The translations under genes were made by a program, and so were the position numbers. Below are positions 10,673 through 16,682 of a stretch of DNA of 64,000 nucleotides, one piece after another. The stretch lies in NCBI RefSeq assembly GCF_000794385.1, contig NZ_JTJB01000001.1, positions 1 through 64,000 on the forward strand, written 5' to 3'. Each line of letters opens with the position of its first letter. The first letter of the stretch is position 1. A model generated the notes under the pieces. The model was not told where the DNA came from. It did not search any database and saw only the letters and a program-made list of their open reading frames with translations. This DNA is from Thermus sp. 2.9 (GTDB lineage: Bacteria; Deinococcota; Deinococci; Deinococcales; Thermaceae).

Positions 10673-11776
10673 ATGCGGCCGGGGCTTTCCGCAAAAAGGC
10701 TGGTGGTCAAGGTGGGAAGCGCGGTCCTGGCGGGGCCTGGGGGGCTGGACCTAGGCGTCATGGCCGAGCTCGCCCGCCAGGTCTTGGCCCTGAAGGCGGC
10801 GGGGCGGGAGGTGGTCCTGGTTTCCTCCGGGGCGGTGGCGGCGGGGATGTCGGCCACGGGGCTTCCCCGCCCCCAGGACATGCCCTTAAAGCAGGCCCTC
10901 GCCGCCATCGGCCAACCCCTTCTCATGGCCGCCTGGAGGGAGGCCTTTCGGGGGGTTCCCGTGGCCCAGGTTCTGCTGACGGCGGAGGACTTGGCCTCCC
11001 GGGAACGCTACCTGAGCGCCAAGGCCACCCTGAAGGCCCTTTTGGACCTGGGGGCCATCCCCGTCATCAACGAGAACGACACCGTGGCCTTCCAGGAGAT
11101 CCGCTTTGGCGACAACGACCAGCTTTCCGCCCGGGTGGCGGCTTTGGTGGAGGCGGGGCTTCTTCTCCTCCTTTCCGACGTGGACGCCCTATACGAGGAG
11201 GACCCGAAGCAAAACCCCGAGGCCAAGCCCATCCTCGAGGTGCTAGACCCCACTTCCGTTCTGCGGCACGCTGGGGAGGGAAACCCCTTGGGAAGTGGCG
11301 GCATGCGCTCCAAGCTCCTCGCCGCCCGGCTTGCGGGGTGGGTGGGCATCCCCACCCTTCTTCTGCCCGGGAGGCGGCCCGGGGTCGTCGTGGAGGCCTT
11401 GGAAGGGAGGGCGCTTGGCACCTACTTCCACGCCCAAAGGCGCTACCGGGGGCAAAGGGCCTGGCTTTACGGCCTCCTGCGCCCCAAGGGGGAGCTCGTT
11501 TTGGACCAAGGGGCGGTGCGGGCCCTGAAGGAGCGGGGGGCAAGCCTCCTTCCCGCCGGGATCAAGGAGGTGCGGGGGCGGTTCGGCCGGGGCGAGGCGG
11601 TGCGCCTCCTCGCCGAAGGGGGGGAGGAGGTGGGGGTGGGGCTTGCCAACTACGCCGCCGAGGAGATCGCCCGGATCAAGGGGCGAAAGAGCAGCGAGAT
11701 TGAGGCCATCTTGGGCTACCGCTACACCGAGGAGGTGGTCCACCGGGACCACCTGGCTCTAAAGGAGGAAGCATGA
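10673..11776 (+). CDS. proB: Glutamate 5-kinase
   Basis: This enzyme catalyses the first step of proline synthesis, ATP-dependent phosphorylation of glutamate. The 367-residue protein has the amino-acid-kinase fold (about 1-255) with VVKVGSAVLAG at the N-terminus, VLVSSGAVAAGM and the glutamate-binding region VINENDTVAF...FGDNDQLSA. A C-terminal PUA domain follows (about 275-355), as in E. coli ProB. Its stop overlaps the proA start by 4 bp (ATGA), so the two are one operon. A TATCCT box about 8 bp upstream of the ATG is the likely -10. Confidence 0.95.
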   Translation: MRPGLSAKRLVVKVGSAVLAGPGGLDLGVMAELARQVLALKAAGREVVLVSSGAVAAGMSATGLPRPQDMPLKQALAAIGQPLLMAAWREAFRGVPVAQVLLTAEDLASRERYLSAKATLKALLDLGAIPVINENDTVAFQEIRFGDNDQLSARVAALVEAGLLLLLSDVDALYEEDPKQNPEAKPILEVLDPTSVLRHAGEGNPLGSGGMRSKLLAARLAGWVGIPTLLLPGRRPGVVVEALEGRALGTYFHAQRRYRGQRAWLYGLLRPKGELVLDQGAVRALKERGASLLPAGIKEVRGRFGRGEAVRLLAEGGEEVGVGLANYAAEEIARIKGRKSSEIEAILGYRYTEEVVHRDHLALKEEA

Positions 11777-13010
11777 CCTTGGGGTTGAGGGAACTGGCGG
11801 AAAGGGCGAAGGCCAAGTTGCCCCTCCTCGCCAAGGGGAGGCGGGACGAGGCCCTTTTGCGCATGGCGGCGCTTCTTTCCGAGCGCTGGCCGGAGGTGCT
11901 ACGGGCCAACCAGATGGACCTGGAGGAGGCGGAAAGGGCGGGGCTTCCCAAGGCCAAGCTGGACCGGCTCGCCTTAAAGGAGAAAGACCTCAAGACCCTC
12001 ACGGAGGGCCTCAGGCAGATCGCCGCCCTGCCCGACCCCTTGGGCCGGATTGAGGGCTTAAGCAAGCGGCCCAATGGCCTTAGGGTGGGCCGGATCCGGG
12101 TGCCCTTGGGCCTTATCGGCTTCATCTACGAGGCGCGCCCGGGGGCCACGGTGGAGGCGGTGGCCGTGGCCTTGAAGGCGGGAAACGCCATGCTCCTAAG
12201 GGGCGGCAAGGAGGCCTTCCGCTCCAACCGGGCCTTGGTGAGCCTCTGGCACGAGGCCTTGCGGGAAGCGGGGCTTCCCGAGGAGGCGGTCTCCCTGGTG
12301 CCCACCACGGACCGGGAGGCCATTTTGGAGATGTGCCGCCTGGAGCTTTTGGACCTCCTCATCCCGAGGGGAGGGGAGGAGCTCATCCGCCTGGTGCAGA
12401 AAGAGGCCCGGGTGCCCGTCCTAGCCCACGCCAAGGGGGTGAACCACCTCTACGTGGACGAGAAGGCGGACCTTTCCATGGCCCTCCGCCTGGCCCTGAA
12501 CGGCAAGACCCAGCGCCCCGCCGTGTGCAACGCCCTCGAGGCCCTCCTGGTCCACGAGAAGGTGGCGGAGGCCTTCCTGCCCCTTCTGGAAGGGGCCATG
12601 CGGGAAAGGGGGTGGAGCTTCGGGCCTGCCCCCGGGCCCTTCCCCTCCTCAAGGAGGCGGTGCCCGCCCGGGAGGACGAGTGGGACCGGGAGTACCTGGA
12701 CCTCATCCTCCGGGTCAAGGTGGTCTCGGGCCTGGAGGAGGCCTTGGCCCACATCGCCCGCTACGGCTCCCGGCACACGGAGGCCATCTGCACGGAGGAC
12801 CCCAAGGCGGCTTGGCGCTTTTTGGAGGAGGTGGACGCCTCCTTGGTCCTTTGGAACGCCTCCACCCGCTTCAACGACGGCTTTGAGCTAGGCCTGGGGG
12901 CGGAGATCGGCATCAGCACCTCCAAGCTCCACGCCTACGGCCCCATGGGCCCCCTAGAGCTCACCACCTTGAAGTGGGTGGCCCTGGGGGAGGGGCAGGA
13001 GAGGGCTTAG
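11773..13010 (+). CDS. proA: Gamma-glutamyl phosphate reductase, apparent frameshift
   Basis: It reduces gamma-glutamyl phosphate to glutamate semialdehyde with NADPH, the second step of proline synthesis. Both halves are well conserved: [13 protein letters not shown] and the nucleotide-binding region in the N-terminal part, and [20 protein letters not shown] with [20 protein letters not shown] in the C-terminal part. The frame breaks in the G-run at 12608-12612, where five Gs are present and six are needed for [15 protein letters not shown]. The corrected protein is 412 residues, normal for ProA. The catalytic Cys region (around [12 protein letters not shown]) is intact. Confidence 0.92.
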
Positions 13011-13018
13011 GCGTTCCC

Positions 13019-13144
13019 ATGGGCGGGGAAAGGGGGTGGGCGGTCCGGGCCCTTGGGGAGGTGGGCCGTTACGGGGAGGTCCAAGCTGCGGTCTACCGGG
13101 GCCTTGGGGCGCTGGACCCGGAGGGGGTGGTGTTCCCTGTTTAG
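13019..13144 (+). CDS. Possible small ORF of unknown function (41 aa)
   Basis: An ATG 8 bp after the proA stop opens a 41-codon frame with Thermus-like third positions, reading MGGERGWAVRALGEVGRYGEV and ending VVFPV. It overlaps the presumed start region of the YihY gene in another frame. I do not recognise it. A one-base indel near its end (the CCC at 13135-13137) would fuse it to the YihY protein as an N-terminal extension, and indels of that kind are common in this window. Whether it is separate, fused or not coding is open. Confidence 0.3.
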   Translation: MGGERGWAVRALGEVGRYGEVQAAVYRGLGALDPEGVVFPV

Positions 13145-13919
13145 GCGGCTCTTGGCCCTCTACACCGAGGCCCACGTTCCTTTCTTCGCCGCCGCCCTCG
13201 CCTACTACGCCCTTCTCTCCCTCATGCCCCTTCTTTTCCTCCTGGTGGGGGTTTTTGGCCTGGTATTGGCGGGGAACCCCCTTTGGCAAAAGGAGCTCCA
13301 GGAAGCCCTGGAGGGGCTCACCTTGTCCCTTTTCCCCGCCCGGCCCGAGCTCGCCCAGGACCTCCTCCGCTTCCTTTCGCAAAGCGCCTTTCCCCTCACC
13401 CTGGGAAGCGGCCTCCTTTTCCTTTGGTCCGGGAGCAACTTCTTCGCCGCCCTGAGCTACGCCTTGGGCCTCCTCTTCGGCCGGCCCCCGGGGGTGCGTC
13501 ACCGGCTTTTAGGCCTTTTCATGCCCTTTCTCCTCGGCCTCGCCCTCATCCTCCTCTCCCTTTTGGGGTTGGCCCTAGGCTTTTTCCTCCGCTACCTGCC
13601 CCCGGCCTGGCGGGGCCTTTTGGGGCCTTTGGAGCTCCTCCTACCCCTCTTTGCCGCCTTTTGCCTCTTCCTTCTGACCTACGCCTTTTTCCGCGGGGTG
13701 CGGGGCCTACGGGACCTCCTTCCCTTAAGCGTGGGGGCGGGGATGGCGGCCCTCCTCTTTGAGGGGGTGCGGCTTGGGCTTCCCGCGCTCCTTCCCCGCT
13801 CCCAGTACGAGCTCCTCTACGGCCCCCTGGCGGGGTTCGTCCTGGCCCTCCTCGGGCTTTACCTGCTCCTCCTTTCCCTTCTCCTTGGGGCCTTGGCGGC
13901 CCGGGTCCTGGAAGACTAG
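13107..13919 (+). CDS. YihY/virulence factor BrkB family membrane protein
   Basis: A polytopic membrane protein with about six transmembrane segments. The family signature appears at the start of the mature frame, RRLLALYTEAHVPFFAAALAYYALLSLMP. It was once annotated as RNase BN; the true role, perhaps transport, is unknown. The start is uncertain: in-frame TTG codons at 13053, 13107 and 13149 are candidates and none has a clear ribosome-binding site. The family usually begins only a few residues before the RRLL motif. The gene is downstream of proBA and ends just before the leuS promoter. Confidence 0.8.
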   Translation, partial: GRWTRRGWCSLFRRLLALYTEAHVPFFAAALAYYALLSLMPLLFLLVGVFGLVLAGNPLWQKELQEALEGLTLSLFPARPELAQDLLRFLSQSAFPLTLGSGLLFLWSGSNFFAALSYALGLLFGRPPGVRHRLLGLFMPFLLGLALILLSLLGLALGFFLRYLPPAWRGLLGPLELLLPLFAAFCLFLLTYAFFRGVRGLRDLLPLSVGAGMAALLFEGVRLGLPALLPRSQYELLYGPLAGFVLALLGLYLLLLSLLLGALAARVLED

Positions 13920-13959
13920 CGCCTTTTCCCCAGGAAGCAAAAAGGGGTAAGATGGGGGC

Positions 13960-13986
13960 ATGCGCCCGGCCAGGCTAGCCCCCTAA
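13960..13986 (+). CDS. Putative leuS leader peptide (MRPARLAP)
   Basis: An eight-codon ORF whose ATG is placed 6 bp after a -10 box, as in leaderless Thermus mRNAs. It contains one Leu codon, CTA (13975-13977), a codon that is rare in this GC-rich sequence. The Leu codon lies directly after the 5' arm of helix P1, and the stop codon touches the 5' arm of the antiterminator. A ribosome stalled at CTA would cover P1 and leave the antiterminator free. A single control codon is weak evidence, so the coding assignment is tentative. Confidence 0.45.
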
Positions 13987-14006
13987 AGGGAAGGGGCCTG
14001 GCCGTC

Positions 14007-14035
14007 CCCTTCCCTTACCGGGAAGGGTTTTTTTT
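14007..14035 (+). terminator. Intrinsic terminator in the leuS leader
   Basis: A perfect 8-bp stem, CCCTTCCC (14007-14014) and GGGAAGGG (14020-14027), with loop TTACC, is followed by eight consecutive Ts (14028-14035). The leuS Shine-Dalgarno GAGGAGG begins immediately after (14036-14042). It could end read-through from YihY, but as placed it must also act on any leuS transcript. Confidence 0.85.
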
Positions 14036-14047
14036 GAGGAGGCGAAC

Positions 14048-16682
14048 ATGGAGAAGTACAACCCCCACGCCATAGAGCCCAAGTGGCAACGCTTCTGGAA
14101 AGAGAAGGGCTTCATGAAGGCCAAGGAGGAGCCGGGGAAGCGGGGCAAGCAGTACGTCCTGGTCATGTTCCCCTACCCCTCCGGGGACCTGCACATGGGC
14201 CACCTGAAGAACTACACCATGGGGGACGTCTTGGCCCGCTTCCGGAAGGTGCAGGGCTACGAGGTCCTTCACCCCATGGGCTGGGACGCCTTCGGCCTGC
14301 CGGCGGAAAACGCCGCCTTGAAGTTTGGGGTCCACCCCAAGGAGTGGACCTACCAGAACATCCGCCAGGCCAAGGAGAGCCTGGAGCTCATGGGCATCCT
14401 CTACGACTGGGACCGGGAGGTCACCACCTGCGAGCCCGACTACTACCGCTGGAACCAGTGGATCTTCCTCAAGATGTGGGAGAAGGGCCTGGCCTACCGG
14501 GCCAAGGGCCTTGTGAACTGGTGCCCCAAGTGCCAGACGGTCCTCGCCAACGAACAGGTGGTGGAGGCGGCGTTGCTGGCGGCACGAGGACACTTTGGTG
14601 GAAAAGCGGGAGCTGGAGCAGTGGTACCTGCGCATCACCGCCTACGCCGACCGGCTCCTTCGGGACCTCGAGGGCCTGGACTGGCCCGAGAAGGTGAAGG
14701 CCATGCAACGGGCCTGGATCGGCCGCTCGGAAGGGGCGGAGATCCACTTCCCCGTGGAGGGGCGCGAGGAGAGGATCACCGTCTTCACCACCCGCCCCGA
14801 CACCCTCTTCGGGGCCACCTTCATGGTCCTGGCCCCCGAGCACCCCTTGACCCTGGAGCTTGCCGCCCCCGAGCGCCGGGAGGAGGTCTTGGCCTACGTG
14901 GAGGCGGCCAAGCGCAAGACGGAGATTGAGCGCCAGGCGGAAGGGCGGGAGAAGACGGGGGTTTTCCTGGGGGCCTACGCCCTTAACCCCGCCACCGGGG
15001 AGCGGATCCCCATCTGGACCGCCGACTACGTGCTCTATGGCTACGGCACCGGGGCCATCATGGCCGTGCCCGCCCACGACAGCCGGGACTACGAGTTCGC
15101 CAAGAAGTACGGCCTCCCCATCAAGAAGGTGATTGAACGCCCCGGCGAGCCCCTTCCCGAGCCCCTGGAGGGGGCCTACGAGGAGCCGGGCATCATGGTG
15201 AACTCCGGCCCCTTTGACGGCACGGAGAGCGAGGAGGGCAAGCGGAAGGTCATCGCCTGGCTGGAGGAAAAGGGCTTGGGTAAGGCCCGCATCACCTACC
15301 GCCTGCGGGACTGGCTCATCAGCCGCCAGCGCTACTGGGGCACCCCCATCCCCATGGTCCACTGCCCCGCCTGCGGCGTGGTGCCCGTGCCCGAGGAGGA
15401 GCTTCCCGTCCTCCTGCCCGACCTCAAGGACGTGGAGGACATCCGCCCCAAGGGAAAAAGCCCCCTGGAGGCCCACCCCGAGTTTTACGAGACCACCTGC
15501 CCCCGGTGCGGAGGCCCCGCCAAGCGGGACACCGACACCATGGACACCTTCTTTGACAGCTCCTGGTACTACCTGCGCTACACCGACCCCAAAAACGAGC
15601 GCCTACCCTTCGCCCGGGAGAAGGCGGACTTCTGGATGCCGGTGGACCAGTACATCGGCGGGGTGGAGCACGCCGTGCTGCACCTCCTCTACAGCCGCTT
15701 CTTCACCAAGTTCCTCCACGACCTGGGCATGGTGGGGGTGGAGGAGCCCTTTAAGGGCCTCTTCACCCAGGGCATGGTCATGGCCTGGACGGACTTCGGC
15801 CCGGTGGAGGTGGAAGGGGATCGGGTGCGCCTGCCCGAGCCCACCCGCATCCAGCTGGAGATGGCCGAAAGCGAGCTCTCCCTGGAGGACGTGAAGAAGA
15901 TGGGGGCCGAGCTCAGGCCCCACAAGGACGGCACCCTCCACCTCTGGAAGCCCGCGGTGATGAGTAAGTCCAAGGGCAATGGGGTCATGGTGGGGCCCTT
16001 CGTGAAGGAGGAGGGGGCGGACATCGCCCGCATCACCATCCTCTTCGCCGCCCCGCCCGAGAACGAGATGGTCTGGACCGAGGAGGGGGTGCAAGGGGCC
16101 TGGCGCTTCCTGAACCGGGTGTGGCGGCGGGTGATGGAGGACAAGGAGGCTCTTTTGGCCACCACGGGGAAGTTCCGGAAGGAGGACCTGGAGGGGGAGG
16201 ACAAGGCCCTTTATGGGAAGCTCCACGAAACCCTGAAGAAGGTGACGCAGGACCTCGAGGCCCTCCGCTTCAACACCGCCATCGCCGCCCTCATGGAGCT
16301 CCTGAACGCCCTTTACGAGTACCGCCGCCAGCGGCCCGTGACCCCGGTGTACCGCACCGCCGTCCGCTACTACCTGCAGATGCTCTTCCCCTTCGCCCCC
16401 CACATCGCCGAGGAGCTTTGGCACCAGTTCTGGCCCGATAGCCTCTTTGAGGCGGGCTGGCCTGAGCTGGACGAAAGCGCCCTGGAGAAGGACGTGGTGG
16501 AGGTGGCGGTGCAGGTGAACGGGCGGGTGCGGGGCACCATCCGGATCCCCAAGGACGCCCCCCTGGAGGTGGCCTTGACGGAGGCCAAAAAGGTCCCCAA
16601 CGTCCAGGCCCACCTGGAGGGTAAGGAGGTGGTGAAGGAGATCTACGTGCCGGGGAAGATCCTCAACCTGGTAGCGCGCTAA
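14048..16682 (+). CDS. leuS: Leucyl-tRNA synthetase, apparent frameshift
   Basis: It charges tRNA-Leu with leucine. Visible features are the HIGH-type motif in [20 protein letters not shown] (about residue 40), a zinc-type [14 protein letters not shown], the CP1 editing domain ([24 protein letters not shown]), a second zinc motif (CPRCGG) and the KMSKS loop [12 protein letters not shown]. The frame breaks at about 14567-14575, just after ANEQVVE, where one extra base (or two missing) separates it from [15 protein letters not shown]. The corrected length is about 877 residues, right for Thermus LeuRS. Since leuS is essential and the rest is intact, a sequence error is much more likely than inactivation. 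Confidence 0.95.

Follow-up and report, generated by a model that had tools for sequence, protein, structure and literature searches.

A probable leaderless leader-peptide attenuator with a single leucine codon upstream of leuS in Thermus

The window, a 64,000-nucleotide stretch of the Thermus sp. 2.9 genome, carries directly upstream of leuS what is very probably a ribosome-mediated (leader-peptide) transcription attenuator with a leaderless leader ORF, as judged from comparative sequence analysis and RNA folding. We infer that transcription actually terminates within this leader and that termination responds to the charging of tRNA-Leu. A first-pass annotation of this DNA had proposed such an attenuator, and its three helices, T-run and eight-codon ORF are read directly in the sequence at the positions listed in Table 1; comparing the leuS upstream regions of relatives yielded an outcome favourable to the proposal.

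A −10-like hexamer lies ~6 nt upstream of the mini-ORF start, a spacing found in all Thermus leaders and one that points to a transcription start site near 13960; no consensus −35/−10 pair was found at the leuS leader. The antiterminator and the terminator share an arm (14006-14016 in the former, 14007-14014 in the latter) and are mutually exclusive, and an intrinsic terminator, comprising a hairpin and a T-run, separates the leader ORF from leuS in all Thermus leaders. When the leader is folded without constraints, P1 is extended such that the CT of the Leu codon pairs with GG at 13995-13996, and these two bases therefore have a structural role as well. The third base of the codon, A, is unpaired and invariant.

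Table 1. Positions of the leuS leader elements and adjoining genes in the window
Feature	Position	Strand	Basis or remark
yihY-type gene	13053-13919	same direction as leuS	ends ~110 bp upstream
TAAGAT, −10-like hexamer	13948..13953	+	sequence; predicted leaderless start near 13960
Leaderless mini-ORF, ATG CGC CCG GCC AGG CTA GCC CCC TAA	13960..13986	+	frame kept in 27/27 Thermus genomes
P1 5′ arm, CGGCCAGG	13967..13974	+	fold extends arm to 13976
Leu codon CTA, proposed stall site	13975..13977	+	invariant in all Thermus leaders
Antiterminator 5′ arm, AAGGGAAGGGG	13986..13996	+	exact 11-bp complement of 14006..14016
P1 3′ arm, CCTGGCCG	13997..14004	+	fold extends arm from 13995
Antiterminator 3′ arm, CCCCTTCCCTT	14006..14016	+	overlaps terminator 5′ arm
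Terminator 5′ arm, CCCTTCCC	14007..14014	+	8 bp with 14020..14027
Terminator 3′ arm, GGGAAGGG	14020..14027	+	sequence
Eight T	14028..14035	+	run ends 12 bp before leuS ATG at 14048
Shine-Dalgarno GAGGAGG of leuS	14036..14042	+	sequence
leuS, leucine--tRNA ligase	14048..16682	+	open frames; TIGR00396, 777 bits for the 14595-16682 part

In the proposed mechanism, RNA polymerase would start at the ATG at 13960, or right beside it, and a ribosome would load on the bare 5′ end. When charged tRNA-Leu is short, the ribosome would wait with CTA in its A site, covering the P1 5′ arm; most of the antiterminator 5′ arm would stay accessible, and GAAGGGG could pair with CCCCTTC. The antiterminator, once formed, would block the terminator and leuS would be transcribed. 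When leucine is plentiful, the ribosome would instead reach the stop codon and cover the antiterminator arm, the terminator would form, and transcription would end at ~14035. If no ribosome is bound, P1 would form and the terminator would be favoured as well.

We folded 25 distinct leaders in these three states at 37 and 65 °C, assuming a ribosomal footprint that extends 12 nt past the A site. With this assumed footprint, the modelled edge of the CTA-stalled ribosome lies where the antiterminator 5′ arm begins or in its first bases, and 7 of the 11 antiterminator pairs are still available in the window's own leader. The RNA left free by the stalled ribosome, before the terminator 3′ arm has been made, folds into the antiterminator in all 25 leaders at both temperatures. 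Under the same assumption, a ribosome placed on the stop codon masks the antiterminator arm and the terminator forms in the model. The free leader folds as P1 plus the terminator in most leaders, including that of the window. At equilibrium, the stalled state is near balance, the full-length terminator roughly matching or exceeding the antiterminator in stability in many leaders, again including the window's. Given this balance, antitermination would have to be kinetic, with the antiterminator forming first. Outside Thermus, leaders of the family mostly have an antiterminator that overlaps 3–5 pairs of the terminator arm, and the detail of the switch thus differs there.

The combination of a TANNNT hexamer, a mini-ORF and a terminator occurs once in the whole 64-kb window, counting both strands, while 20 dinucleotide shuffles of the window together yielded three matches, none with CTA. 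The terminator by itself is unremarkable (two terminator-like sites locally versus 2.0 expected in a simple scan), and the whole-leader fold has a z-score of −2.2 against shuffled sequences. The first-pass annotation had called CTA a rare codon; it makes up 4.8% of the Leu codons in the window's long ORFs, which is rare, but not extremely so. Evidence from this single sequence alone would be weak, and the weight of the argument rests on conservation.

We located leuS in 27 Thermus genomes and compared the upstream regions. All 27 share a common layout: TANNNT, ~6 nt, an ATG or GTG, seven or eight codons, a stop codon, hairpins, a T-run, a Shine-Dalgarno sequence and leuS. The mini-ORF, the CTA codon, the antiterminator and the terminator are likewise present in every one, so that the conservation of the mini-ORF's Leu codon that the first-pass annotation had put up for checking holds throughout the genus. 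The peptide M-x-x-A-R-L-x-P is encoded in 25 of the 27 genomes, and P1 has the form GGCCAGG/CCTGGCC in 25. In two Thermus genomes (L024 and L028), the P1 region has been rebuilt and an in-frame CTA is retained (GTG CGC GCG TCC CTA CGT CCC TAG).

Codon usage and P1 pairing were compared across 23 distinct leaders of the common type, 22 from Thermus and one from a sister genus. Codon 6 is CTA in all 23 of them, codon 7 takes seven values (GCC, ATC, ACC, GTC, AAC, TGC and CAC), and the stop codon interchanges among TAA, TGA and TAG. On this sequence comparison, the pattern is that of a selected codon and not of a conserved peptide. P1 pairing is retained across the same leaders, with five single changes that all produce a G-U pair, and the sister genus has one compensatory change from A-U to C-G, by which the Arg codon AGG becomes the Arg codon CGG. 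Covariation in the helices had been suggested as a check, and these P1 changes, five G-U and one compensatory, keep the pairing. The pairs were counted with the arms located by script, as automatic alignment misplaces two of the leaders (L027 and L112); each of these has one unpaired P1 position in an ungapped count.

At the level of the order, a strict scan that combined TANNNT, an ATG or GTG mini-ORF and a terminator gave positives upstream of leuS in 55 of the 69 genomes examined, although these share ancestry and the counts are not independent. An in-frame CTA is present in all 55 scan-positive leaders, often two or three times in distant relatives. In the other genera of the family, 18 of 22 leuS upstream regions pass the scan, with typical leaders encoding MQWFIHLELP (CTA GAA CTA) and MKFAGRLLELPGGPC (CTA CTA GAA CTA). 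In the other families of the order, 10 of 20 pass, and the leader peptides include MIWAGLART, MTRTGLPPA, and MIRSGLLSLGALLG and MKIKHTQRLLLAEGPGH with CTA CTA CTA. The single Leu codon had been named as the weak point of the proposal. This is true of Thermus, but it is answered by the distant relatives, where CTA xxx CTA, CTA CTA CTA or more Leu codons are found; with Leu codons multiplying there, the single-CTA version of Thermus looks like a trimmed form.

The leuS upstream regions of L114, L125 and L262-L265 lack the leader or have none that is recognised, and two others (L115 and L117) have a short ORF with CTA that does not pass the strict scan. In L114, L115 and L117, where the leader is absent or shortened, leuS directly follows an apparent tRNA-Leu gene (anticodon TAA, identified by eye). 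A second sample, 19 distant genomes outside the 69, gave five positives in a similar scan, and the leader is patchy there. As controls, the strict scan was positive in none of 54 upstream regions from 13 other Thermus synthetase genes, whose starts were anchored on motifs as automatic start choice is noisy, and in 1 of 77 leuS upstream regions from other phyla, where the single match lacks a Leu codon.

Within the same genome, T6 followed by a Shine-Dalgarno sequence and ATG was found in three places: leuS, metG and a sugar-transporter-permease-like gene. Among the metG upstream regions (L141, L142-L167 and L281-L300), the leader of 25 of 27 Thermus genomes consists of a leaderless ORF, M-K-G-M-P-x-x, whose fourth codon is an internal Met codon, followed by a terminator, and metG leaders of other genera read ...R-M-M-R-M-S-R-R, with up to three Met codons. 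When the free metG leader is folded, the mini-ORF itself supplies the antiterminator, and a ribosome on the mini-ORF mostly allows the terminator; this pattern of antitermination with no ribosome, which comes from the folding model only, is not clear in some leaders. Because a start codon needs charged initiator tRNA, the metG switch could read initiation. A broader reading is that leaderless mini-ORF attenuators are old across the order, that they serve generally to control its synthetase and amino-acid genes, and that metG senses initiation through initiator-tRNA charging, its antiterminator forming only where no ribosome has started; we consider it rather doubtful.

The behaviour of metG bears on whether the leuS attenuator might be tuned to general translation, either through the initiation rate or through a stalling peptide, rather than to leucine. 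The single Leu codon of the Thermus leader would suit such a device, the Pro codon before the stop could slow termination, and the related metG leader antiterminates in the model mainly without a ribosome. However, the leader peptides across the order have diverged almost completely around the Leu residue and have little else in common, whereas the Leu codons multiply in distant relatives. In addition, the free leuS leader of the window terminates in the folding model, whereas a sensor of initiation would require the reverse. We thus regard tuning to general translation as improbable. A nascent-chain arrest peptide was rejected, Leu being the only residue common to the leader peptides across the order.

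It is less probable still that the leader is a protein- or tRNA-bound RNA element, acting through LeuRS autoregulation or as a T-box, in which CTA is kept for structure or binding. Synthetase genes are often autoregulated, and ileS of the same genome (L235) has a T-box (RF00230; 78 bits against a gathering score of 93). Yet the ORF is under codon-wise constraint, and CTA is kept in unrelated leader sequences and at varying distances from the helices. Rfam searches with gathering and E-value thresholds gave nothing credible at leuS or metG, and a T-box at leuS was rejected as RF00230 has no match there. The LEU element of Actinobacteria (leuA), in which a run of Leu codons pairs with the Shine-Dalgarno box and a pseudoknot is formed, was rejected as well; in the fold of the Thermus leuS leader, CTA does not pair with GAGGAGG, and the leader has an intrinsic terminator.

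Intergenic terminators are common and the yihY-type gene ends shortly upstream in the same direction, but there is very little probability that the hairpin merely terminates that gene and that the mini-ORF is an accident of a short intergenic gap: a conserved ORF, preceded by a promoter-like hexamer, separates the two, the frame and CTA are kept together with the antiterminator and P1, and the leader still adjoins leuS in several genomes where the sequence upstream of it differs (L015, L024, L027 and L028), which indicates that the leader belongs to leuS.

Besides the probable leucine attenuator at leuS, a looser search of the same genome returned further leaderless ORFs followed by terminators. 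Upstream of a leuC-type gene (L314), which encodes the 3-isopropylmalate dehydratase large subunit, a leaderless MRRGILLDLDRAGPV contains CTG CTA GAC CTA before a strong terminator, making this a second Leu leader of the genome. Leaderless MNLPSALWWPG, with Trp-Trp, precedes a terminator at trpE (L326), and leaderless MLARGKKLGRRGVG, with Lys-Lys, precedes one at the homocitrate synthase gene (hcs; L305). The DAHP synthase gene (L312) is preceded by a leaderless MRRPGRYFGFYYPAGGALRSA with three Tyr and two Phe codons and a terminator, a candidate aromatic attenuator. Taken with the metG, leuC, DAHP synthase, trpE and hcs leaders, the leuS leader suggests that leaderless attenuators are a principal means of amino-acid control in this lineage. 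An attenuator is absent from most other Thermus synthetase genes in the upstream sequence read. With the T-box of ileS, the synthetase genes of this genome are served by two kinds of sensing system. At greA (L335), a hairpin and a T-run lie just before the start, with no mini-ORF seen; attenuation of greA, an elongation-factor gene, is possible from its sequence.

The trp and leu attenuators of E. coli and Salmonella switch between three states by means of pause, antiterminator and terminator hairpins, and the leu leader of Salmonella likewise makes use of rare CUA leucine codons. These leaders carry a ribosome binding site together with several control codons, whereas the Thermus leuS leader is leaderless, is eight codons long, has one control codon and targets a synthetase. 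Within the genus, Tsubouchi et al. reportedly described leader-peptide attenuation of the T. thermophilus hcs lysine cluster in the Journal of Biological Chemistry in 2005, which would share the mechanism, but with lysine biosynthesis, and not leuS, as its target.

The closest precedent comes from another phylum. Transcription attenuation of leuS has been predicted in S. coelicolor and S. avermitilis (PMC1262725), and the S. lividans leuS leader LeuL2, MRAVRLLLSEPR, is leaderless and followed by a hairpin and a U-run (PMC8079986); a leaderless leader for trpS, with just one Trp codon, is described in that paper as well. The Streptomyces leuS leader resembles that of Thermus in its gene, its leaderless short ORF with Leu codons and its antiterminator and terminator, but it has three adjacent Leu codons where Thermus has one CTA. 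Mycobacterial leaderless poly-Cys ORF attenuators are described as translational attenuation (PMC13236596, reference 47); they similarly employ a leaderless short ORF to sense one amino acid, but are poly-Cys and translational, in contrast to the single codon and intrinsic terminator of Thermus leuS. In a survey of five Deinococcus-Thermus genomes, ~40% of genes are leaderless (PMC3160421).

The first-pass annotation knew of no description for a Thermus leuS, and our literature search, which covered few subscription papers and leaves absence unproven, found none for a Thermus leuS or metG attenuator; however, leuS attenuation as such is not new, given the Streptomyces precedent (PMC1262725, PMC8079986). 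The Thermus leader adds a well-supported candidate regulatory device for an essential synthetase in a laboratory thermophile on which much of the structural work on ribosomes and polymerases draws. One codon would be able to suffice in a leaderless eight-codon leader, and the device appears to be retained, with more Leu codons, in distant relatives.

The leuS frame itself is split by one extra base near 14570 (14560-14600) relative to a close relative (L003). As leuS should be essential, an assembly error is the likely cause of the broken frame. A proA-like frame at 11773-13010 is also split, into overlapping ORFs at 11773-12891 and 12333-13010, and probably reflects a sequencing error similar to the one in leuS.
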